Shown here piece by piece: positions 21,598-63,817 of a DNA stretch of 64,000 bases. The DNA is taken from assembly GCA_002319075.1 (NCBI GenBank), contig NVQB01000001.1, positions 1,240,001-1,304,000 of the forward strand, in the 5' to 3' direction. Below the pieces are notes generated by a model. That model was not told the origin of the DNA. It saw only the letters and a program-made list of their open reading frames with translations, and ran no database searches. A program made the translations under genes and the position numbers. Every line of letters begins with the position of its first letter. The stretch's first letter is position 1. The DNA is from Sphingobacteriaceae bacterium (lineage in GTDB: Bacteria > Bacteroidota > Bacteroidia > B-17B0 > Aurantibacillaceae).

Positions 21598-23088
21598 CTA
21601 CTCTTTAATAAGTTTAAGTGTCTCTGTTTTTCCTGCTGAATTTATTTTAGCGTAATAAACACCCGCTGAAAATTCCTTTAGGTCTATTTTTAATTTTTTA
21701 CTGGTAGTTTGCGTGCTAAGAATAATTCTTCCACTTAGATCAATTACTTCCACGAATTTCATTTCTGAATTTTCGGATTCAAAAGTATAAACTCCGCTGC
21801 CCGGATTAGGATAAACTTTAAACATCGAAGCTGAAGAGTTGCTTGTTAATCCACTACAATTGTCTGAAGAGAAGAAGATAGCCGTTGTTTTCTTGCAACC
21901 ATCAGAACCCATACCAATAAGATTTATGGAATTAGAAATGGCTGCCGTGTATGTATAAAGCGTGCCGGAAGCATTTCCCTGACTGGTTGACCAGGTATAA
22001 CTCAAACTACCTGCGCTGCTCGCTGTAAAGGTTATTACATCAAACCTGCAAAGAGTACTCAATGATTTTGAAGCGCTGTATGTAAATACAGGCAAAGGAT
22101 TAACGGTAACAGTGTAATTCGCGATTGATGAACAGCCACTTGAGTTTGTCCCGGTTACCGTGTAAATAGTAGTAACTGCTGGAGTTACTGTTATTGCTGC
22201 TGATGTGGCGCCGGTGTTCCACGAATAAGAGGTGGCGCCATTTGCCTGCAAACCTATATTAGCACCTAAACAAACAGAATTATCTCCGACAACCACAATG
22301 CCCGGAGCAGGCAGCAGTGTTACATACGGAGCATTTAAAGTCGCGGAACAACCACTAAGCATATTGGTACCTATAACATAATATTGCATGTTTTGATTAG
22401 GCATTGCGGTAAAACTCGATGCCGTTGAGCCATTGCTCCAACTGTAAGTATCAGCTCCACTTACAGTAGCAGAATAAGTTTGTCCATTACATAATGTGTT
22501 TGTAGCTGTAACAATTGTTAAGCTGGGGGAATTGCCAGCCGAAGTGCAAGGAATACTAACGTCAAAATCATCCCATGTTAAAGAAGGATTACTGAAAGAA
22601 TTATTTATACTTATTCCACGTATGGCGAAATAATAAGTACCACTTGAAGCTACTGCAAAAGTATTGCTAAGAGCCACATAGGCAGGAGAAGCAGGAAAAT
22701 TTACCGAAGCAAGAGAAACCAACCCTGATGAGGTCTGGCTTGTGCCGAGCATAATGGATAAATCACTCCAGGAATTAGAACTAGCCGAAGAAACTTTGTG
22801 CCAGAGAGATGCAGAATAGGTTACTCCCGCATTTAAATTTACAGCCCGCGAATAAAAGTAGCTTGTACCAACGGGACCATCCAGAAATCCTGCAGAACCA
22901 TTACCCAGTGAGTAGGTAACACAAGTAGTCGGATTACTAATAGCCCAGCATGCAGGCAATTGATTGTTAGCTGTGAAGCCACTAAAATTCTCATGATAAG
23001 GAACTGTTGTGGCAGTTGCGCATTGTGAGAATGAGCGTGTAAAAAATAAACACGCAAGCAGTGTAAGTGTGAGGTAGATTTTTTTCAT
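21598..23088 (-). CDS. secreted Ig-like repeat protein with T9SS sorting domain (paralog 1)
   Basis: The 496-residue product has a signal peptide (ends R-S-F-S-Q). It has an N-terminal jelly-roll-like domain opening with V-P-Y-H-E-N-F and containing W-D-D-F-D-V. Two to three PKD/Ig-like repeats follow (S-Y-S-W-N-T-G-A-T, Y-T-V-T-G-T-N-S-S-G-C). The T9SS type A sorting domain is C-terminal (V-Y-P-N-P-G-S-G-V-Y, L-K-L-I-K-E). Paralogs are the adjacent gene at 23117-24619 and the gene at 31200-33713. No catalytic motif is seen; probably a surface adhesin-like or structural protein. Confidence 0.9.
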   Translation of the reverse strand: MKKIYLTLTLLACLFFTRSFSQCATATTVPYHENFSGFTANNQLPACWAISNPTTCVTYSLGNGSAGFLDGPVGTSYFYSRAVNLNAGVTYSASLWHKVSSASSNSWSDLSIMLGTSQTSSGLVSLASVNFPASPAYVALSNTFAVASSGTYYFAIRGISINNSFSNPSLTWDDFDVSIPCTSAGNSPSLTIVTATNTLCNGQTYSATVSGADTYSWSNGSTASSFTAMPNQNMQYYVIGTNMLSGCSATLNAPYVTLLPAPGIVVVGDNSVCLGANIGLQANGATSYSWNTGATSAAITVTPAVTTIYTVTGTNSSGCSSIANYTVTVNPLPVFTYSASKSLSTLCRFDVITFTASSAGSLSYTWSTSQGNASGTLYTYTAAISNSINLIGMGSDGCKKTTAIFFSSDNCSGLTSNSSASMFKVYPNPGSGVYTFESENSEMKFVEVIDLSGRIILSTQTTSKKLKIDLKEFSAGVYYAKINSAGKTETLKLIKE

Positions 23089-23116
23089 GTGGTGTGTGGT
23101 TATTTAGATGGTGAGT

Positions 23117-24619
23117 TTATTCTTTTATAAGTTTGATTGAAACCGGCTTTCCCAGGGAGCTTATGTTTATGTTATAAATGCCCGCGCAAAATTGTTCAAG
23201 ATTTATTTTTATTTGAGCGGAAGATGATTGACTGCTGGAAACGATCTTGCCTGTAAAATCCTTAATTACTATTGTTTTCAAATCCTCACTTCCGGAATCA
23301 AGAATGTACTGGCCCTTACCTGGGTTAGGATAAATTTTAAATTCTGTAACCTCATTACGTTTGATACCGGTGCAAGCAGCCACATTTAAAACATACACTG
23401 CCTTTGCAAAACAGCCATTTGCCCCGGTACCGGTAAGGTTTACGGTTGTTGCACTGGTAGCTTCAAGGCTAAAGGACGACCCTGAAAAAAGTCCTTGATT
23501 TGTAAACCATTGGTAACTAACAGCACCCTCGGCTTTGAAGCTTACGGTTTCTCCTTTACAAACCGTAGGCGTTAAAGCAGAAACACTGTAATTAATTACA
23601 GGCAGAGGGTTGACGATAACAGAGTACTCGGCTGACGCTTTACAACCACTGGCATTTGTTCCTACAACCGTATAAGTTGAGGGAGCTGATGGCGTGACTG
23701 TTATCACTGCTGAGATAGCTCCGTTGCTCCATAAATAAGAATTGGCGCCATTTGCAACCAAGGTTATATTGTCGCCCAAACAAACGCTCGGTTTACTTCC
23801 AGTTACAATAACAGGTGGCGATGGAAAGAGGGAAACGTTAACCGCCGCTGAGCTCGAGCAACCGGTTAACGTACTTGTGCCCACTACAGAATAGCTAGTG
23901 TTGAAAAAAGATGAATTGGTACTTGTATTTGTTGGTGCAGTTGTTCCGTCAAACCATAAATAACTATCTGCTCCACTAGCTGTTGCAGTAAAATTATTTT
24001 GACCCTGACATATGGAATTCGTATTTGCAACCACCGTTACGCTAGGGGTATTGGCTGAAATAGTGCAGGGAATAATTACGTTAAACCCATCCCAGTAGAG
24101 CACCGATGATCCGGAAACTCCATTGCTTATGCCCCTCACAGCAAAATAATAAACACCACTGGAAGCTACAGCAAAAGTGCCACTTACGGGTGAATAAATC
24201 ATATTTACGGCAGCACCATTTGTACTAGCCAGAGTTACTACACCAGTAGAACTTTGACCTGTGCCTAATAGAATCGAAAAATCCGTCCATGTAATAGTAG
24301 TATTTGACAAAACTTTATACCACGCAGAGGTCGAGTAAGTAATGCCGGCGTAGAGTTGAACAGCTTTAGAGTAAAAATAGCTCGACTGTGCAGGACTATA
24401 ATAAAACGCGGCACCTGCTGTCCCGGTCCACCCTGCTCCCGTAAAGGTCAAGCAGGTAGAAGGGTTGCTTATTGCCCAACAGCCAGGCAATTGGTTGTTA
24501 GTGGTAATGATTTCAAATCCTTCATAGTAAGGAACTGTTGTTGGAGTTGAACATTGAGAAAAAGATTTTATACAAAATAAAGAGGCAACAAGAATAAGAA
24601 ACGGGTAGATTTTTTTCAT
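23117..24619 (-). CDS. secreted Ig-like repeat protein with T9SS sorting domain (paralog 2)
   Basis: The 500-residue product matches its downstream neighbour in layout. It has a signal peptide ending K-S-F-S-Q, V-P-Y-Y-E-G-F-E opening the N-terminal domain, Y-W-D-G-F-N-V, then Ig-like repeats (Y-T-V-V-G-T-N-A-S-G-C) and a sorting domain (I-Y-P-N-P-G-K-G-Q-Y, I-K-L-I-K-E). The two genes are 28 bases apart in the same direction, so they look like a tandem duplication in one transcript. No enzyme motif seen. Confidence 0.9.
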   Translation of the reverse strand: MKKIYPFLILVASLFCIKSFSQCSTPTTVPYYEGFEIITTNNQLPGCWAISNPSTCLTFTGAGWTGTAGAAFYYSPAQSSYFYSKAVQLYAGITYSTSAWYKVLSNTTITWTDFSILLGTGQSSTGVVTLASTNGAAVNMIYSPVSGTFAVASSGVYYFAVRGISNGVSGSSVLYWDGFNVIIPCTISANTPSVTVVANTNSICQGQNNFTATASGADSYLWFDGTTAPTNTSTNSSFFNTSYSVVGTSTLTGCSSSAAVNVSLFPSPPVIVTGSKPSVCLGDNITLVANGANSYLWSNGAISAVITVTPSAPSTYTVVGTNASGCKASAEYSVIVNPLPVINYSVSALTPTVCKGETVSFKAEGAVSYQWFTNQGLFSGSSFSLEATSATTVNLTGTGANGCFAKAVYVLNVAACTGIKRNEVTEFKIYPNPGKGQYILDSGSEDLKTIVIKDFTGKIVSSSQSSSAQIKINLEQFCAGIYNINISSLGKPVSIKLIKE

Positions 24620-27005: not shown

Positions 27006-27033
27006 AATCTTTTTAAATTCCTATTCTTCCTGA

Positions 27034-27065
27034 AGCCTCCTTTTTGTTAAAAAGGAGGCTTTTTT
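27034..27065 (+). terminator. rho-independent terminator after the acyl-CoA dehydrogenase gene
   Basis: A perfect 12-bp stem, AGCCTCCTTTTT and AAAAAGGAGGCT around a GTT loop, is followed by a T run. Confidence 0.92.
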
Positions 27066-27160: not shown

Positions 27161-28573
27161 ATGAGTGAGTACGACGATGATGCGGACGGATTGAATGACA
27201 AGGAATTTGAAGAGAACTTAAGACTTTTCGAAGATATGCTGACCACTGGTCAGGTTCATTTTTTTGATGCGGATGATATTGAGGAGATTATAGATTATTA
27301 TCTTCAGTGGTTGAATTATGATATGGCCAAAAAGGCTATTGATTACGGATTGGAGCGTTATCCTTTTTCCACGATCATTAAAATCCGTTATGCCCAATTT
27401 CTTTCGAGCCAACATTACACTTACGAAGCGCTCAACATTCTTAACGAAGTAGAACAAATCGAACGCAATAATTTTGAGCTTTATATGGCTCGTGGATACA
27501 TCTACAGCCAAATGGGTCTGGGTGAACAGGCTATTGAGAATTTCAAGAATGCCATTCCACTTTCAGATCAAAAAGATGAGGTATATGTAGCACTTGGTGT
27601 TGAATTCTTAAATGAAGACAAGCCAGATGACGCTCTCTATTACCTTAAGAAGGCAATCAAGATGAATCCTAAAAACGAAGTAGCATTAAATGAACTTTCT
27701 TTGTGCTTCGACCTTACCGGAAAATCAGATGAAGCTATTGGCTTCTTTGAGCAATACATTGACAATCACCCATACAGTTATTTTGCCTGGTTTAATCTCG
27801 GCTTAGGATACGGACGCATTGGTCTTTTTGAGAAAGCCATTGAAGCCTATGATTATGCCTTGGCTATAAATGAACAATTTAGTTCAGCCTATTTTAATAA
27901 AGCAAATTCGTTAGCGCAATTAAATAAGTTTGAAGAAGCAATTGAAGTTTATAAAGAAACTTTCAAGTACGAAGATCAGGAACCTACTACTTATTATTAC
28001 ATCGGCGAGTGTTACGAAAACCTCGATCGTTTTGAGGAAGCCCTTGTTAACTACAATAAATGCGTAAAACTCGATCCGGCAAACGCTGATGCTTGGTTAG
28101 GTATTGGGGTTGTTCTCGACGCTATGAACCGGTTAACGGAAGGCGTACATTACATTAAAAAAGCCATTGAGATTAACCCCAACGAACCTGAATACTGGTA
28201 TGTATTTGCCGAAGTTCAGGAAAAACTTGGATTTATTGAAGAGGCTGCCATGGCCTACCAACGGGTTATAGAACTCGATTACCCCGATTACGACGTATGG
28301 TTGGATTACTCTAAACTTTTGCACCATAACGGTTACGTAGACGACGCTATTAAAAACCTCAACGAAGGCATTAAGAAATTTCCGGATGTTGCTGAACTGT
28401 ATTACCGTCTCTCTATAATATTATTAGATAAACACCGTCGTAAAGAATCACTCGATATTTTAGCCCGCGCTATGGATATGGATTTTACAAAACACGACGA
28501 AATTTTTGAATACGCACCTGTTTTAAAAAATGACCAGGAAATTTTAAATTTAATCTCCGGTTTCAAAAAATAA
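27161..28573 (+). CDS. tetratricopeptide repeat protein
   Basis: The 470-residue product has an acidic N-terminus and then about eleven TPR units from residue 45 onward. Examples are A-I-E-N-F-K-N-A-I-P-L, D-A-L-Y-Y-L-K-K-A-I-K-M-N-P, E-A-L-V-N-Y-N-K-C-V-K-L-D-P and G-V-H-Y-I-K-K-A-I-E-I-N-P. No signal peptide, so cytoplasmic. TPR proteins act as scaffolds; the partner is unknown. It is first in a tight operon with comA (2-base gap), a rhodanese and a DedA protein. Confidence 0.92.
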   Translation: MSEYDDDADGLNDKEFEENLRLFEDMLTTGQVHFFDADDIEEIIDYYLQWLNYDMAKKAIDYGLERYPFSTIIKIRYAQFLSSQHYTYEALNILNEVEQIERNNFELYMARGYIYSQMGLGEQAIENFKNAIPLSDQKDEVYVALGVEFLNEDKPDDALYYLKKAIKMNPKNEVALNELSLCFDLTGKSDEAIGFFEQYIDNHPYSYFAWFNLGLGYGRIGLFEKAIEAYDYALAINEQFSSAYFNKANSLAQLNKFEEAIEVYKETFKYEDQEPTTYYYIGECYENLDRFEEALVNYNKCVKLDPANADAWLGIGVVLDAMNRLTEGVHYIKKAIEINPNEPEYWYVFAEVQEKLGFIEEAAMAYQRVIELDYPDYDVWLDYSKLLHHNGYVDDAIKNLNEGIKKFPDVAELYYRLSIILLDKHRRKESLDILARAMDMDFTKHDEIFEYAPVLKNDQEILNLISGFKK

Positions 28574-28575
28574 TT

Positions 28576-29367
28576 ATGGCAAATCAATATAACTTCAACC
28601 TCTCCCACTTACCTGAACGCACAACCAGCCCACGTAAAAACGGTGTTACTATGGTAATGGATAAAGGGATTAGTCTGCGTCAGGCAGAAGATTTTATCAG
28701 CGTGTCGGCCGACTACGTTGACTTTGTAAAACTGGGTTTCGGAACCTCTTTAATTACAAAGAATGTAAAAGATAAAATTAAGTTGTATAAAGATGCCGGC
28801 ATGAAAGTTTATGTGGGCGGTACCTTGTTCGAAGCTTTTATAGCACGCAACAAATTTGACGACTACAGAAAATACATTGCTGACCTTGGATTGGATTCTG
28901 CAGAAGTAAGCGATGGCAGTGTTGAAATTAATCACGAAAAGAAATGCGAATATATAAGCATTCTTGCAAAAGATTACACCGTGTTAAGTGAAGTTGGCAG
29001 TAAAGAAGAAGGCGTGATCATTCACCCTGCGCGATGGATTAACATGATGTTGAATGAATTGCAGGCTGGTGCTTTTAAAGTGATTGCCGAAGCAAGAGAA
29101 AGCGGAACTGTTGGTATTTTTCACAAGAATGGAAGTGCTCACACTATGCTTATCAACCGCATTGTAAATAAAGTAAAGATTGAAAATATCATCTGGGAAA
29201 CCCCTCAAAAAAGTCAGCAGGTTTATTTTTTAAAATTATTCGGATGCAATGTAAACGTTGGTAATATTGGTGTTGACGATGTTATTCCATTAGAAACCTT
29301 ACGTTTAGGGTTACGCGGAGACACCTTCTTTACTTTTTTACCGGAAGAAATGAAACAACCCCTTTAA
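28576..29367 (+). CDS. comA: phosphosulfolactate synthase (ComA family)
   Basis: The 263-residue TIM-barrel protein has the family hallmarks R-K-N-G-V-T-M-V-M-D-K-G, V-D-F-V-K-L-G-F-G-T-S, Y-V-G-G-T-L-F-E, V-S-D-G-S-V-E-I and S-E-V-G-S-K-E-E-G. The enzyme adds sulfite to phosphoenolpyruvate, giving (R)-2-phospho-3-sulfolactate, the first step of the archaeal coenzyme M pathway. The phosphatase for the next step, ComB, is at 63110-63817. The gene begins 2 bases after the TPR gene and is followed by a rhodanese gene, a sulfur-handling family. Assay would be needed to confirm substrate. Confidence 0.9.
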   Translation: MANQYNFNLSHLPERTTSPRKNGVTMVMDKGISLRQAEDFISVSADYVDFVKLGFGTSLITKNVKDKIKLYKDAGMKVYVGGTLFEAFIARNKFDDYRKYIADLGLDSAEVSDGSVEINHEKKCEYISILAKDYTVLSEVGSKEEGVIIHPARWINMMLNELQAGAFKVIAEARESGTVGIFHKNGSAHTMLINRIVNKVKIENIIWETPQKSQQVYFLKLFGCNVNVGNIGVDDVIPLETLRLGLRGDTFFTFLPEEMKQPL

Positions 29368-29379
29368 TAGTTTAATAAC

Positions 29380-29688
29380 ATGAAAGAAATTACAGTACAG
29401 GAATTAAAAAAACTCATCGACGAGAAAGCGGATTTTCAATTGATTGATGTGCGCGAAGAGCACGAGTTTGACGAAGCAAATCTGAATGGAACCTTAATTC
29501 CTATGGGTGAAGCCTTAGATCGCGCTGATGAAATTTCAAAAGATAAACAAGTTGTAATTCATTGCCGCAGCGGTAAACGCAGTGCAACTGTTATTGGAGC
29601 TTTAGAAAGTCAGTTAGGCTACACCAACCTTTACAATCTTAAAGGTGGTATTCTTGCATATATTGAAGAAATCGGATTAGAAAAATAA
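29380..29688 (+). CDS. single-domain rhodanese-like sulfurtransferase
   Basis: The 102-residue product is a complete rhodanese domain. L-I-D-V-R-E-E-H-E-F-D is near the start and the active-site loop is H-C-R-S-G-K-R-S, with the persulfide-carrying Cys. It lies between comA and the DedA gene with gaps of 12 and 4 bases. Single-domain rhodaneses pass sulfane sulfur or act on thiosulfate; here it might supply sulfite or persulfide to the same pathway, which is an inference from position only. Confidence 0.93.
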   Translation: MKEITVQELKKLIDEKADFQLIDVREEHEFDEANLNGTLIPMGEALDRADEISKDKQVVIHCRSGKRSATVIGALESQLGYTNLYNLKGGILAYIEEIGLEK

Positions 29689-29692
29689 ACCC

Positions 29693-30334
29693 ATGGTAGA
29701 ATTATTTAAACACATCTTACACCTCGATTTCGATTGGTTGTTTGCCAATTATGGAGCGGCTATTTACACCGTTCTTTTCCTGGTTATATTTATTGAAACC
29801 GGTTTAGTGGCTATGCCATTTTTACCCGGCGATTCTCTTTTATTTACTGCAGGATTATTTGCAAGAACCGGGCATTTAAATATGTCTTATCTCTTAATTC
29901 TTCTCTTCATTGCTGCCGTATTAGGCGACAATTGTAATTACTGGATAGGAAGAAAAATTGGTGTCAAAATTTTTGATCTCAAATTAAAAGGCCGTCCCAT
30001 TGCGAAAAGAGAATACCTTGACAAAACGCATGAGTTCTTTGAAAAACACGGCACTAAAGCCATCATCATGGCCCGTTTCGTTCCTTTCGTTAGAACTTTT
30101 GCACCCTTTGCAGCGGGCGTAGGCAAAATGGATTATAAAAGGTTTTTAAGCTTCGACGTTCTTGGTGGGGCTCTTTGGATAGGCAGTTTAACTACAGCCG
30201 GTTATCTTTTAGGAAAAGTTGATTTTATCAGAAAACATATTGATTTGGTTTGCCTTGGAATTATTTTTATTTCCGTGGTACCGATTATTTTTTCTGCTTT
30301 GAAAAGCAGAATGCAAAGCAAACAATCTTCTTAA
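29693..30334 (+). CDS. DedA/SNARE-associated family membrane protein
   Basis: The 213-residue product has about five membrane spans. It has the DedA signatures F-I-E-T-G-L-V-A-M-P-F-L-P-G-D-S-L-L-F and, later, A-R-F-V-P-F-V-R-T-F-A-P-F-A-A-G. DedA proteins are inner-membrane transporters, several of which move undecaprenyl phosphate or phospholipids across the bilayer. It is the last gene of the TPR-comA-rhodanese operon and is closed by a terminator. Confidence 0.93.
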   Translation: MVELFKHILHLDFDWLFANYGAAIYTVLFLVIFIETGLVAMPFLPGDSLLFTAGLFARTGHLNMSYLLILLFIAAVLGDNCNYWIGRKIGVKIFDLKLKGRPIAKREYLDKTHEFFEKHGTKAIIMARFVPFVRTFAPFAAGVGKMDYKRFLSFDVLGGALWIGSLTTAGYLLGKVDFIRKHIDLVCLGIIFISVVPIIFSALKSRMQSKQSS

Positions 30335-31199: not shown

Positions 31200-33713
31200 T
31201 TAGTTTTTTATAAGCTTGATTACTTTGTTTGCATTACCTGAAGTAATTTTTACAGAATAAACACCTGCTGCAAGACCATCAACACTTACGTTTATTTGAT
31301 CTTCAGAAGATTTTGTATTAACAACAACACGTCCTGTAACATCCGTTACAATTACTTGTTTAGTTACACCATTTGCTAAGCCAACAGTGAAAAGACCATT
31401 GGTTGGATTTGGATAAAGGTTAACCCCGGTTAATTCAGAACTTATTTCATTTAAACCTACACAAGCTGAAACATTCACCGCTACCTGCGCTGAAGCTGAG
31501 CAACCACGGAAATCAGTTCCTGTTAATGTATAAACAGTGCTTGACGTCGGATTTACTAAAGCCTGTTGTGTAAGGATAATTGTAGAGTTATTGATCCATT
31601 GGTAGCTGATAGCACCACTTCCGGTTAACGTTGCCGTTTCACCTGCACAAAGTTCGTTAGGTGCAGAGCTCACTGCTGTTACAGGAGGCAAAGGATTAAC
31701 ACCAATCGTTGCTACTACAGATGTTTTACAGCCGATATTGTTTGTACCGGTTACCGTGTAAGAAGTTGCCACTGTTGGAGCAACTGTTGCTGTTGAATTC
31801 GTAGATCCGGTACTCCAGCTGTAAGAAGTAGCTGAACCCAAAGCAACTAATGATGCCGATGAGCCCAAACATACTGATGGTGTTGAAACATAAATTGAAA
31901 CAACGGGTGAAGGATTTATTGTAAGCATTGGTGTTACAGTTGTTGAACAACCGGATGCTGTGTTAGTGGCTACCACGCTGATATTTACATTAGTCGAATA
32001 AGGAATGAATGTAATAGAAGGAGCGATTTCGCCTGTGCTCCAGGTAAATTCATCGCCACCGGTAGCAGAAATAGTAATATCCTGATCACTACAAAGATTA
32101 GCCGGACTTGTGGTTAAAGAGACAGTTGGCGCATTTAACGAGCAAGGAATTGTGACAGATAAATCATCAAATGTTAAGAAATTTGGAGTACTATTTCCAA
32201 TACATTTAATGGCTATGTAATAAATTCCCGACGTTGCTACAGTAAATGTGTTTGATAAAAGTTGGTAGAAAGTACCTGTAACTGGGGTTACGGAAGCAAT
32301 TGTAGTTAATCCTACAGTAGATTGCGTTGATCCCAGGTTTAATGAAAGATTAGACCAACCAAGTGCGCCGTCAGTAATGTACCAAACAGCCGCCGAATAC
32401 GTAACACCTGGCTCCATTTGAACGCCGTTAGAATAAAAATAATCTCCCGCGGCATTTGTACCGAAGCGGAATGAAGCAAATTTAGATCCTGTATGCGGAA
32501 TTCTATTGTTAGCTGCAGCTACAGTGTAAGTTTGATTAATGGTGGGTAAATTACTGGCAGCCCATGAACAGTTTGGCAACTGGTTGTTCACCGTAATACC
32601 TTCAAATCCTTCGTAATAAGGCACCGTATTAATTGTTACGCCGGCAATATTTACACCATAAGGTGTAGCAGTTGAACTTTGTGGTCCCACACTGCATGTA
32701 ATTACCGCCTGGTAGTAACTCGTTACCGTTACATTGCTGGCAGCATAAGAAGAGTTAGTTGCAGTAGGAACGATAGTAAAGGGCCCTACAGCTGATTGAT
32801 CTGAAACGTACCACTGATAACTGATACCGGTGTTTGTATAAGAGTTTACAAGATTTAAGGTAGACGCACCGCCCGGACAAATTAAAGAAAATGTGGACGC
32901 AACTGTATTACTAGCCGGTGCTCCTGAACATGGTGGTGGTGGAGTCCACTCGTAAACCTGACCACTTACAGGTTGTAATCCAGAGGTATTGATATTACAA
33001 ACATCAGTATTAACAGTTCCAGGAATAGAGCTGGCCCATACAGTTGGACTCACAACGCTTCTGTTATTAAAGTCAGCATTTGAATTTCCTCTGATACCTA
33101 CCTGGCCGCCTGTTGTACTTGTGATCGTTTGCGAACCATAAACAATATTTATTACATTGGTTGTTTCTTGTAAACGGATCTGAAAATTAAGAAAATCGTT
33201 CCCTAAAAAAACACGGTAGTTAGTCCATTGAATAACACATTCGCGGTTTGGTGGAGAACCCACTGTTTGCACTCTTAAGCTTCCATTGTTAGATACTAAA
33301 TCTCTCCCAAAAGCAGACACCCTGTTTTGTAAAATGGCAGGAGCGGTGCTTGCCCCTGAAATACCTGCTCCAAGGCCGGTATTATTTAGGTTGACCGGAT
33401 TTGGGGTTAATGCAGACTGACCAAATGCAATCCACCCGTTGTTGTCAATACCAAAAACATCATAGGTATTAAAATTAAAAGTAAAATTAAATCCAATAGG
33501 AATACCCGGGCCGGTAGTTTGATTTAAAGTTGGGTTGGCAGGATTAACGAATGCTCCGTCGTCAGTAGTAGAAGTTGCAAATACAGTTCCTCCTGTAATT
33601 GGCAGGTAGGTTCCCTGGTATTGGGAAAACCCATAAATTGAGACTTGTGCGGACGCAGAAAAGGCGAGTATGCCGGTTGCTGCGACCAGTAGGTTTTTGT
33701 ACACTTTTTTCAT
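31200..33713 (-). CDS. large secreted Ig-like repeat protein with T9SS sorting domain (paralog 3)
   Basis: The 837-residue product has a signal peptide (ends A-F-S-A-S-A-Q). An N-terminal domain of about 250 residues follows, with I-G-F-N-F-T-F-N-F and D-N-N-G-W-I-A-F-G, a pattern common in Bacteroidota surface proteins. Residues from about 370 repeat the architecture of paralogs 1 and 2 (V-P-Y-Y-E-G-F-E, T-F-D-D-L-S-V), then come Ig/PKD-like repeats (S-Y-S-W-S-T-G-S-T, Y-T-V-T-G-T-N-N-I-G-C). The C-terminal T9SS sorting domain has L-Y-P-N-P-T-N-G-L-F and V-I-K-L-I-K-N. No catalytic motif was seen. Confidence 0.9.
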   Translation of the reverse strand: MKKVYKNLLVAATGILAFSASAQVSIYGFSQYQGTYLPITGGTVFATSTTDDGAFVNPANPTLNQTTGPGIPIGFNFTFNFNTYDVFGIDNNGWIAFGQSALTPNPVNLNNTGLGAGISGASTAPAILQNRVSAFGRDLVSNNGSLRVQTVGSPPNRECVIQWTNYRVFLGNDFLNFQIRLQETTNVINIVYGSQTITSTTGGQVGIRGNSNADFNNRSVVSPTVWASSIPGTVNTDVCNINTSGLQPVSGQVYEWTPPPPCSGAPASNTVASTFSLICPGGASTLNLVNSYTNTGISYQWYVSDQSAVGPFTIVPTATNSSYAASNVTVTSYYQAVITCSVGPQSSTATPYGVNIAGVTINTVPYYEGFEGITVNNQLPNCSWAASNLPTINQTYTVAAANNRIPHTGSKFASFRFGTNAAGDYFYSNGVQMEPGVTYSAAVWYITDGALGWSNLSLNLGSTQSTVGLTTIASVTPVTGTFYQLLSNTFTVATSGIYYIAIKCIGNSTPNFLTFDDLSVTIPCSLNAPTVSLTTSPANLCSDQDITISATGGDEFTWSTGEIAPSITFIPYSTNVNISVVATNTASGCSTTVTPMLTINPSPVVSIYVSTPSVCLGSSASLVALGSATSYSWSTGSTNSTATVAPTVATSYTVTGTNNIGCKTSVVATIGVNPLPPVTAVSSAPNELCAGETATLTGSGAISYQWINNSTIILTQQALVNPTSSTVYTLTGTDFRGCSASAQVAVNVSACVGLNEISSELTGVNLYPNPTNGLFTVGLANGVTKQVIVTDVTGRVVVNTKSSEDQINVSVDGLAAGVYSVKITSGNANKVIKLIKN

Positions 33714-63109: not shown

Positions 63110-63817
63110 TTATCCTTTCACGAGAAACTTCCTGTCCATGATGGGAATTACCGGGCACTGATTCGGAGTTAAGCAATATTTAATATCCCGTTCAAGATCC
63201 AGCTTTTCAAGACGATTGCGATGAGATGAATGTGCAAGAAAACCGTAAAGGTCATGCTTTGCCAGTTTGTAGAGTTCCATAGCAGCTATGGCCGAGTCGC
63301 AGGCGGAATTAAACCCGTATTTATAAATGAGCTGCTCTGCTACTGCGCCGGCGTATAAAGTATCCTCGAGGTTAAATTTATTTTTCCATCCCGCGCAGAG
63401 AAACACAACATCCTTCTTTTCTTTTTTTAAAAACTCAATAACGGCGTCAAGATTTAAAAAGCTACCGATAATGACTTTGTGAGCATCTTTTGCTACAGAA
63501 ATTGCTTGCGTTCCATTAGTAGTTGTAATGGCAATAGTTTTTCCTTTTACTTTGGCGTTCATATACCCAAAAGGACTGTTGCCAAGATCGAAGCCTTGTA
63601 CTATTTCACCATCTCTTTCAGCTGCTACGAGATACCCTTGTTCCTTATAGGATTGAGCTTCCTCAACGGTAGCAACGGGAATCATTTTGGTAACGCCATT
63701 AAAAAAAGCTGTAGTGATAGCAGAAGAAGCTCTTAAAATATCAATGACAACAACAATGGAATTGGAATTATGGAATAAGGGGTAAGAAAGTGGGCTAAAA
63801 CAAACTTCAATATTCAT
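63110..63817 (-). CDS. comB: 2-phosphosulfolactate phosphatase (ComB family)
   Basis: The 235-residue product shows the ComB motifs V-V-V-I-D-I-L-R-A-S-S-A-I-T-T, A-A-E-R-D-G, F-D-L-G-N-S-P, and T-T-N-G-T-Q-A-I. ComB removes phosphate from phosphosulfolactate, leaving sulfolactate. Its substrate source, ComA, is about 34 kb away in this window. ComB relatives are also annotated in bacteria without coenzyme M, so the true product is uncertain. It is monocistronic here, and the 183 bases beyond its start hold nothing I can identify. Confidence 0.9.
   Translation of the reverse strand: MNIEVCFSPLSYPLFHNSNSIVVVIDILRASSAITTAFFNGVTKMIPVATVEEAQSYKEQGYLVAAERDGEIVQGFDLGNSPFGYMNAKVKGKTIAITTTNGTQAISVAKDAHKVIIGSFLNLDAVIEFLKKEKKDVVFLCAGWKNKFNLEDTLYAGAVAEQLIYKYGFNSACDSAIAAMELYKLAKHDLYGFLAHSSHRNRLEKLDLERDIKYCLTPNQCPVIPIMDRKFLVKG

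Follow-up and report, generated by a model that had tools for sequence, protein, structure and literature searches.

What would a member of the Bacteroidota gain from ComA, phosphosulfolactate synthase, when its gene sits beside a rhodanese gene and the gene for the phosphatase ComB lies elsewhere? The question was raised by the window, the whole 64,000-nucleotide stretch of DNA analyzed here, which belongs to a Sphingobacteriaceae genome of 5,650,162 bases in 2 contigs. A first-pass annotation had paired ComA with a rhodanese, placed ComB about 34 kb away, and supposed that the two enzymes together could make sulfolactate that might feed sulfonates or sulfonolipids. The genes were found as described: ComA is full length and matches PF02679 over the whole profile, a PF00581 gene follows 12 bases 3′ of it on the same strand, and a PF04029 gene lies about 33.7 kb away on the opposite strand (Table 1). 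Profile searches of the entire genome (5.65 Mb) returned ComA as the sole PF02679 match and ComB as the sole PF04029 match. Elsewhere in the window, at 21598-24619 and 31200-33713, are two neighboring paralogues, each about 500 aa long, and a longer protein resembling them; judged by eye, these carry repeats and a C-terminal tail like those of secreted Bacteroidota proteins.

Table 1. Coordinates of the ComA gene row and of ComB, counted from the first letter of the window
Feature	Position	Strand	Basis
Terminator-like hairpin 3′ of the upstream acyl-CoA dehydrogenase gene	27032-27062	+	14-pair stem and T run; consensus match only
TPR-repeat protein at the head of the row	27161-28573	+	Pfam TPR matches
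ComA, phosphosulfolactate synthase	28576-29367	+	PF02679; alignment to 1u83, 1qwg
Single-domain rhodanese, possible sulfite source	29380-29688	+	PF00581
DedA-family membrane protein	29693-30334	+	PF09335 VTT domain
ComB, 2-phosphosulfolactate phosphatase	63110-63817	-	PF04029; alignment to 2yyv, 1vr0

Both genes were scored in a class sample of 295 genomes, of which 253 formed a good subset (completeness 90% or more, contamination 5% or less), and in a phylum sample of 198 genomes. ComA was found in 244 class genomes and ComB in 241, with both present in 232, ComA only in 12, ComB only in 9, and neither in 42. For the good subset the counts were 206, 3, 5, and 39, respectively (Fisher P 1e-36, kinship ignored), a co-distribution within the class that favors the joint work of ComA and ComB that had been claimed. 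In the phylum sample, ComA was over the cut-off in 56 genomes and ComB in 116; all 56 ComA genomes had ComB, and as a further 60 of the 198 had ComB with no ComA over the cut-off, making such cases frequent outside the class, ComB alone is not diagnostic. The ComB protein itself matched PF04029 with an E value of 3.1e-76 over positions 11 to 224 of 226 (255.9 bits), had 2yyv (166 bits) and 1vr0 (138.5 bits) as solved relatives, and scored under all eight listed NCBIfam equivalog cut-offs (e.g., 204.9 versus 330 and 132.4 versus 175.05). In 28 of the 30 ComB loci read (L073-L101 and L202-L208), a GcvT-like gene was no farther than 1.5 kb away, a neighborhood that is absent from the window's own genome and that occurs in ComA-free genomes too. 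Because ComB often stands alone outside the class and has this GcvT-like neighbor, we conclude that ComB may have a second role in some lineages.

A search for sulfonolipid genes, which the first-pass annotation had recommended, returned two CFAT homologues from the window's genome, L111 and L112, the latter 65% identical to the former. L111 scored 591.8 bits to 7u7h, which we take to be A. finegoldii SulA, 580.5 bits to a solved cysteate-C-fatty acyltransferase, and 218.5 bits to serine palmitoyltransferase; a separate serine palmitoyltransferase is encoded in the same genome (685 bits versus a cut-off of 640). When the 295 class genomes were scored with L111, counting E values below 1e-90 as presence and E values above 1e-77 or no match as absence, CFAT was present in 258, including three weak presences (G301, G314, and G272; 1e-93 to 1e-112), and absent in 37; at most six candidates were scored per genome, and therefore CFAT may have been overlooked in some genomes counted as lacking it, such as G286 (6 of 10 scored). 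ComA and CFAT occurred together in 233 of these genomes, ComA only in 11, CFAT only in 25, and neither in 26, and the good subset gave 205, 4, 21, and 23 (Fisher P 9e-17, kinship ignored). Kinship was handled by family counts: among 70 good families, ComA was absent in 8 of 9 without CFAT versus 6 of 61 with CFAT (P 3e-6), family f66 being the one CFAT-free family with ComA. In the phylum sample, where best CFAT scores split into a group of at least 375 bits and a group of at most 236 bits, CFAT was present in 74 of the 198 genomes; 49 had ComA and CFAT, 7 ComA only (all in f13 and f35), 25 CFAT only (2 in f4, 18 in f5, and 5 in f6), and 117 neither. Reduced lineages that lost these genes jointly could give the same picture as a functional link. 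G326 has lost ComA, ComB, and CFAT, all of which are present in the other eight genomes sampled from its genus, apart from G446 (81% complete), in which ComA and ComB are present and no CFAT was found.

Cysteate, the presumed substrate of CFAT, can also come from CapA, and cysteate genes had likewise been recommended for a search. In the window's genome that search returned no CapA over the cut-off; the one match, L123 (454 bits versus 600), is a 456-aa cystathionine beta-synthase-like protein that a tree placed outside the CapA clade of families f4 and f5. CapA over the curated cut-off was found in 8 of the 295 class genomes, all of family f5, all with CFAT, and all without ComA and ComB, which amounts to 8 of the 258 CFAT genomes and none of the 244 ComA genomes. 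Matches under the cut-off occurred in f4 (546 to 548 bits, two genomes) and in G037 of f6 (about 508.5 bits). A CapA-type gene adjoins CFAT in 2 of 2 f4, 8 of 14 examined f5, and 1 of 5 f6 genomes. Trees set the f4 and f5 CapA proteins apart from all others (support 100/99). They joined the CFAT proteins of f4, f5, and f6 in one clade (support 97/98), and therefore the swap to CapA may have been a single evolutionary event. The G037 gene was called CapA from its CFAT linkage and score, a call that is unsure because in the tree it branches, on a long branch, with the beta-synthase side. Some ComA genomes (G201, G429, G252, G316, G304, and G166) encode single-domain CapA-like proteins, which were considered as CapA and rejected, as the tree groups them with the cystathionine beta-synthase-like protein of the window's genome, away from the CapA clade of f4 and f5; that of G252 is on a long branch.

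The 25 phylum genomes that carry CFAT but lack ComA were examined for CapA except for G142, G154, G170, and G174 of f5; 17 had it, and in the other four, G064, G158, G162, and G178 of f6, none was found beside CFAT. Among the 226 good class genomes with CFAT, 202 had ComA and ComB, 3 had ComA without ComB (G246, G275, and G450), 11 had CapA (G037 counted), and in 10 neither ComA nor CapA was found (G064, G243, G322, G331, G334, G349, G355, G401, G442, and G444). Two of the three genomes with ComA but without ComB belong to genus g148, in which three genomes (G243, G275, and G450) lack ComB; ComA is low-scoring in two of the three and absent in the third, and CFAT is kept, a pattern that may represent decay of the route.

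We consider it moderately probable that, in most of the class, ComA-ComB serves as an alternative to CapA in supplying cysteate for sulfonolipids, by a route in which sulfite and phosphoenolpyruvate give sulfolactate, then cysteate for CFAT, with rhodanese possibly releasing the sulfite. In the reactions that we infer, ComA would join sulfite to phosphoenolpyruvate to form (R)-phosphosulfolactate, and ComB would remove the phosphate to leave (R)-sulfolactate. Sulfolactate would be oxidized to sulfopyruvate, probably by a broad-range malate- or 2-hydroxyacid-type dehydrogenase, and sulfopyruvate transaminated to cysteate, probably by aspartate aminotransferase; broad-range enzymes are proposed because sulfolactate, sulfopyruvate, and cysteate correspond, as sulfonates, to malate, oxaloacetate, and aspartate. 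Malate dehydrogenase acts on sulfopyruvate in animals. CFAT would then condense cysteate with a fatty acyl group at the start of capnine/sulfonolipid synthesis. The supposition that the product feeds sulfonolipids gained partial, indirect support: two CFAT genes, the co-occurrence of ComA with CFAT across 295 genomes, and the exclusion between ComA and CapA over the cut-off speak for it, and the sulfolactate step is left without a ComC-family enzyme. The sulfolactate dehydrogenase that had been suggested as a target was sought as ComC, and PF02615 had no match in the window's genome, with control matches in 4 of 14.

Neighborhoods were also read for the two middle enzymes. AroE apart, no dehydrogenase or aminotransferase was found among the annotated conserved neighbors of ComA, ComB, and CFAT; the CFAT neighbors common to two genomes of f2 serve the cell wall and cell division (FtsZ, FtsA, and Mur ligase). 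AroE, often downstream of ComA, was considered for the sulfolactate step, is a shikimate dehydrogenase-type protein (PF08501), and was assigned no role in it. Separately, a 317-aa phosphoglycerate dehydrogenase-like protein (L349:6662-7615) is encoded in the window's genome at a distance of about 6.4 kb from L112, its second CFAT gene, on the opposite strand and with several genes between. It is a weakly linked candidate for the sulfolactate step and a lead only.

Sulfolactate could instead be the end product, as a solute or an excreted sulfonate with no lipid link, in which case the tie to CFAT would reflect shared ancestry and shared loss. Sulfolactate is an end product in Bacillus spores, which we count toward such a role, as we do the absence of ComC from the window's genome. 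Moreover, ComA occurs without CFAT in families f13 and f35, both outside the class and both with ComB, and four good class genomes (G223, G286, G323, and G369) have ComA and ComB without detected CFAT. We nevertheless think an end-product role unlikely, since CFAT accompanies ComA in 205 of 209 good ComA genomes and since the CFAT lineages that have CapA (f4, f5, and part of f6) lack both ComA and ComB. The distribution supports a putative role for ComA-ComB in sulfonolipid supply.

The row in which ComA lies is wider than the ComA-rhodanese pair first reported, as it includes the TPR and DedA genes: it starts after the terminator-like hairpin and runs TPR, ComA, rhodanese, and DedA with intergenic gaps of 2, 12, and 4 bases. 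The rhodanese (PF00581 E 2.4e-15) has a CRSGKR loop. Neighborhoods were compared in the best 80 of at least 585 ComA matches, with denominators given as the loci having enough sequence on the side in question. A TPR gene was directly upstream of ComA in 75 of 77 of these nearest relatives, and 54 of 73 had a rhodanese gene no more than 200 bases 3′ of ComA, an order that exceeds chance; AroE, DUF368, and DedA genes were within 1.5 kb in 40, 32, and 27 of 73, respectively. Of the 67 loci with a rhodanese match, 66 retained Cys62 and one was unaligned. DedA and DUF368 (PF04018, a family named undecaprenyl phosphate translocase-like) occupy the same position in the row alternately and were together in none of the 80 loci (L209-L288). 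When the window and 40 loci fetched more broadly were compared as a wider set, clustering gave a TPR family of 15 members and an AroE family of 14, and a same-cluster rhodanese was directly 3′ of ComA in only 2 of 41 loci (the window and L038); ComA had been missed by the gene caller in 4 of the 40 and was recovered by tblastn. As the wider set seldom shows the row, the full row is a trait of the window's relatives and not of the whole phylum. In the f23 lineage, ComA lies between a 4-alpha-glucanotransferase gene and a starch-synthase-like gene, and in loci L053 and L059-L069 of that family it is inside a glycogen gene group that also includes GlgB.

Rhodaneses react with thiosulfate, and the neighboring rhodanese may free sulfite from it. 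An extended version of the proposal would make TPR-ComA-rhodanese-(DedA or DUF368) a sulfonolipid supply module, in which rhodanese would make sulfite, ComA and the distant ComB would fix it into sulfolactate for cysteate, and DedA or DUF368, as interchangeable translocase-type proteins, would help move the finished sulfonolipid; this would be the commonest cysteate route of the class, displaced by CapA in f4 to f6. We regard the extended version as quite unlikely. ComA could also act as a sulfite trap, removing with phosphoenolpyruvate the sulfite freed by rhodanese or other reactions. The closeness of the two genes in the nearest relatives and the conserved rhodanese cysteine would suit a trap, which would nevertheless leave the ties of ComA to CFAT, CapA, and ComB unexplained and would sit poorly with the rarity of rhodanese adjacency in the wider set; we judge it decidedly unlikely.

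The proposed cysteate supply further presumes that ComA acts as a phosphosulfolactate synthase. The 263-aa protein matched PF02679 with an E value of 3.5e-86 over positions 1 to 243 of 243 (289 bits versus a cut-off of 25.2) and scored 262.8 bits against TIGR03849 (phosphosulfolactate synthase, arch_ComA, an NCBIfam equivalog), under its cut-off of 280. That shortfall, and the fact that the Pfam family also takes in divergent members, would suit an enzyme of the ComA fold that acts on a different substrate, which the divergent PF02679 proteins may do; plant HSA32 is a ComA-fold protein with a possibly different substrate. Such a departure is very improbable here, given an alignment over most of the protein's length to the solved relatives 1u83 (198.6 bits) and 1qwg (180.3 bits), both named phosphosulfolactate synthase, the tie to ComB by distribution, and the residues themselves. 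Lys143 aligned with Lys137, presumably catalytic, of the M. jannaschii enzyme, which we take to be 1qwg. Fifteen checked positions were identical in all 80 nearest relatives (the best 80 of at least 585 matches), and D49, K52, E110, E139, K143, E172, E208, K212, E240, and R243 were unchanged in 105 of 106 canonical loci, the remaining one having K212R; within the class, these ten positions were the same in 39 of 40 sampled loci, with a single change in one. The checked catalytic, acidic, and basic positions are thus conserved, and not replaced as the first-pass annotation had allowed for.

The 106 canonical loci comprise 40 of 40 class and 66 of 70 phylum loci, with some genomes represented twice and 4 further loci divergent, which speaks against inflation of the PF02679 counts by a divergent subfamily; the check left out the low-scoring class matches of G275 and G450 and the single match of G058. 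The divergent proteins (L047:6250-7200, L050, L051, and L071) are about 24% identical to the window's ComA where aligned, have equally high Pfam scores, and lack Lys143 and the ETPQKSQQ-like motif. They accompany canonical ComA in f13, f23, and f35, are the only match in G050 (L071, f13), and may be the plant HSA32-like branch. The nearest relatives of the window's ComA among the matches listed were metagenome-assembled genomes labeled Bacteroidota, Sphingobacteriaceae, Bacteroidetes, and Bacteroidia. ComA and ComB look intact by sequence, and we conclude that both are real genes whose products are likely active. That they serve coenzyme M, as the first two enzymes of its pathway (PMC5695019, in the part available), is scarcely credible and was rejected, as the missing PF02615 match agrees with the earlier remark that coenzyme M genes show no sign here, judged through ComC only.

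Sulfonolipids have been tied to gliding, choanoflagellate development, and inflammation (available parts of PMC9304779 and PMC11211663), and the accessible text of PMC11211663 starts the sulfonolipid route from phosphoserine. The available portion of a review (PMC10191378) assigns CapA to Capnocytophaga and an archaeal-type synthase to Alistipes and Odoribacter, with PMC9304779 as the citation; in the main text of that paper, as far as available, a word search found neither "archaeal" nor "CapA." CapA and this reported archaeal-type synthase were the published cysteate sources that we found. No proposal of ComA-ComB as a sulfonolipid cysteate supply, and no paper in which phosphosulfolactate or sulfopyruvate stands together with sulfonolipid or capnine, was found in the literature searched, which has most subscription journals outside it; where sulfolactate was paired with "sulfonolipid," the word meant the plant lipid SQDG in the text available. 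ComA-ComB would be a candidate cysteate source in 202 of 226 good CFAT class genomes and a possible third route to sulfonolipid precursors. The distribution among related genomes points to many Bacteroidota using ComA-ComB to build the sulfur-carrying head of unusual membrane lipids. If so, the class would be a broad source of sulfolactate or cysteate.

Among known systems, the nearest bacterial likeness is YitD/YitC, which we take to be the ComA/ComB pair of Bacillus subtilis; PF02679 and PF04029 both matched in the B. subtilis control. In B. subtilis sulfolactate is the end product and the two genes are linked, whereas in the window's genome they are 33.7 kb apart. In methanogens, according to the available part of PMC5695019, there are two ways to sulfopyruvate, one through ComA, ComB, and ComC and the other through cysteate synthase and aspartate aminotransferase; ComC has lactate/malate dehydrogenases as relatives, and malate dehydrogenase activity was seen in both M. 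jannaschii enzymes that were assayed. The ComABC branch is like the route proposed here in its first two enzymes, which take phosphoenolpyruvate and sulfite to sulfolactate, and unlike it in that the window's genome lacks the ComC family and the product would be for lipid instead of coenzyme M. By analogy, ComA-ComB and CapA would best be read as alternatives that parallel ComABC and cysteate synthase in methanogens, except that the cell would run the aminotransferase toward cysteate and spend cysteate through CFAT. The capnine pathway, CapA-CapB-CapC, shares CFAT (CapB/SulA), of which the window's genome has two copies, but begins with sulfonation of phosphoserine by CapA (PMC10191378, available portion), in whose place we propose ComA-ComB. 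The archaeal-type cysteate synthase of Alistipes and Odoribacter would likewise be a cysteate source other than CapA, as a single enzyme (PMC10191378, same portion) in contrast to the four-step ComA-ComB route proposed here.
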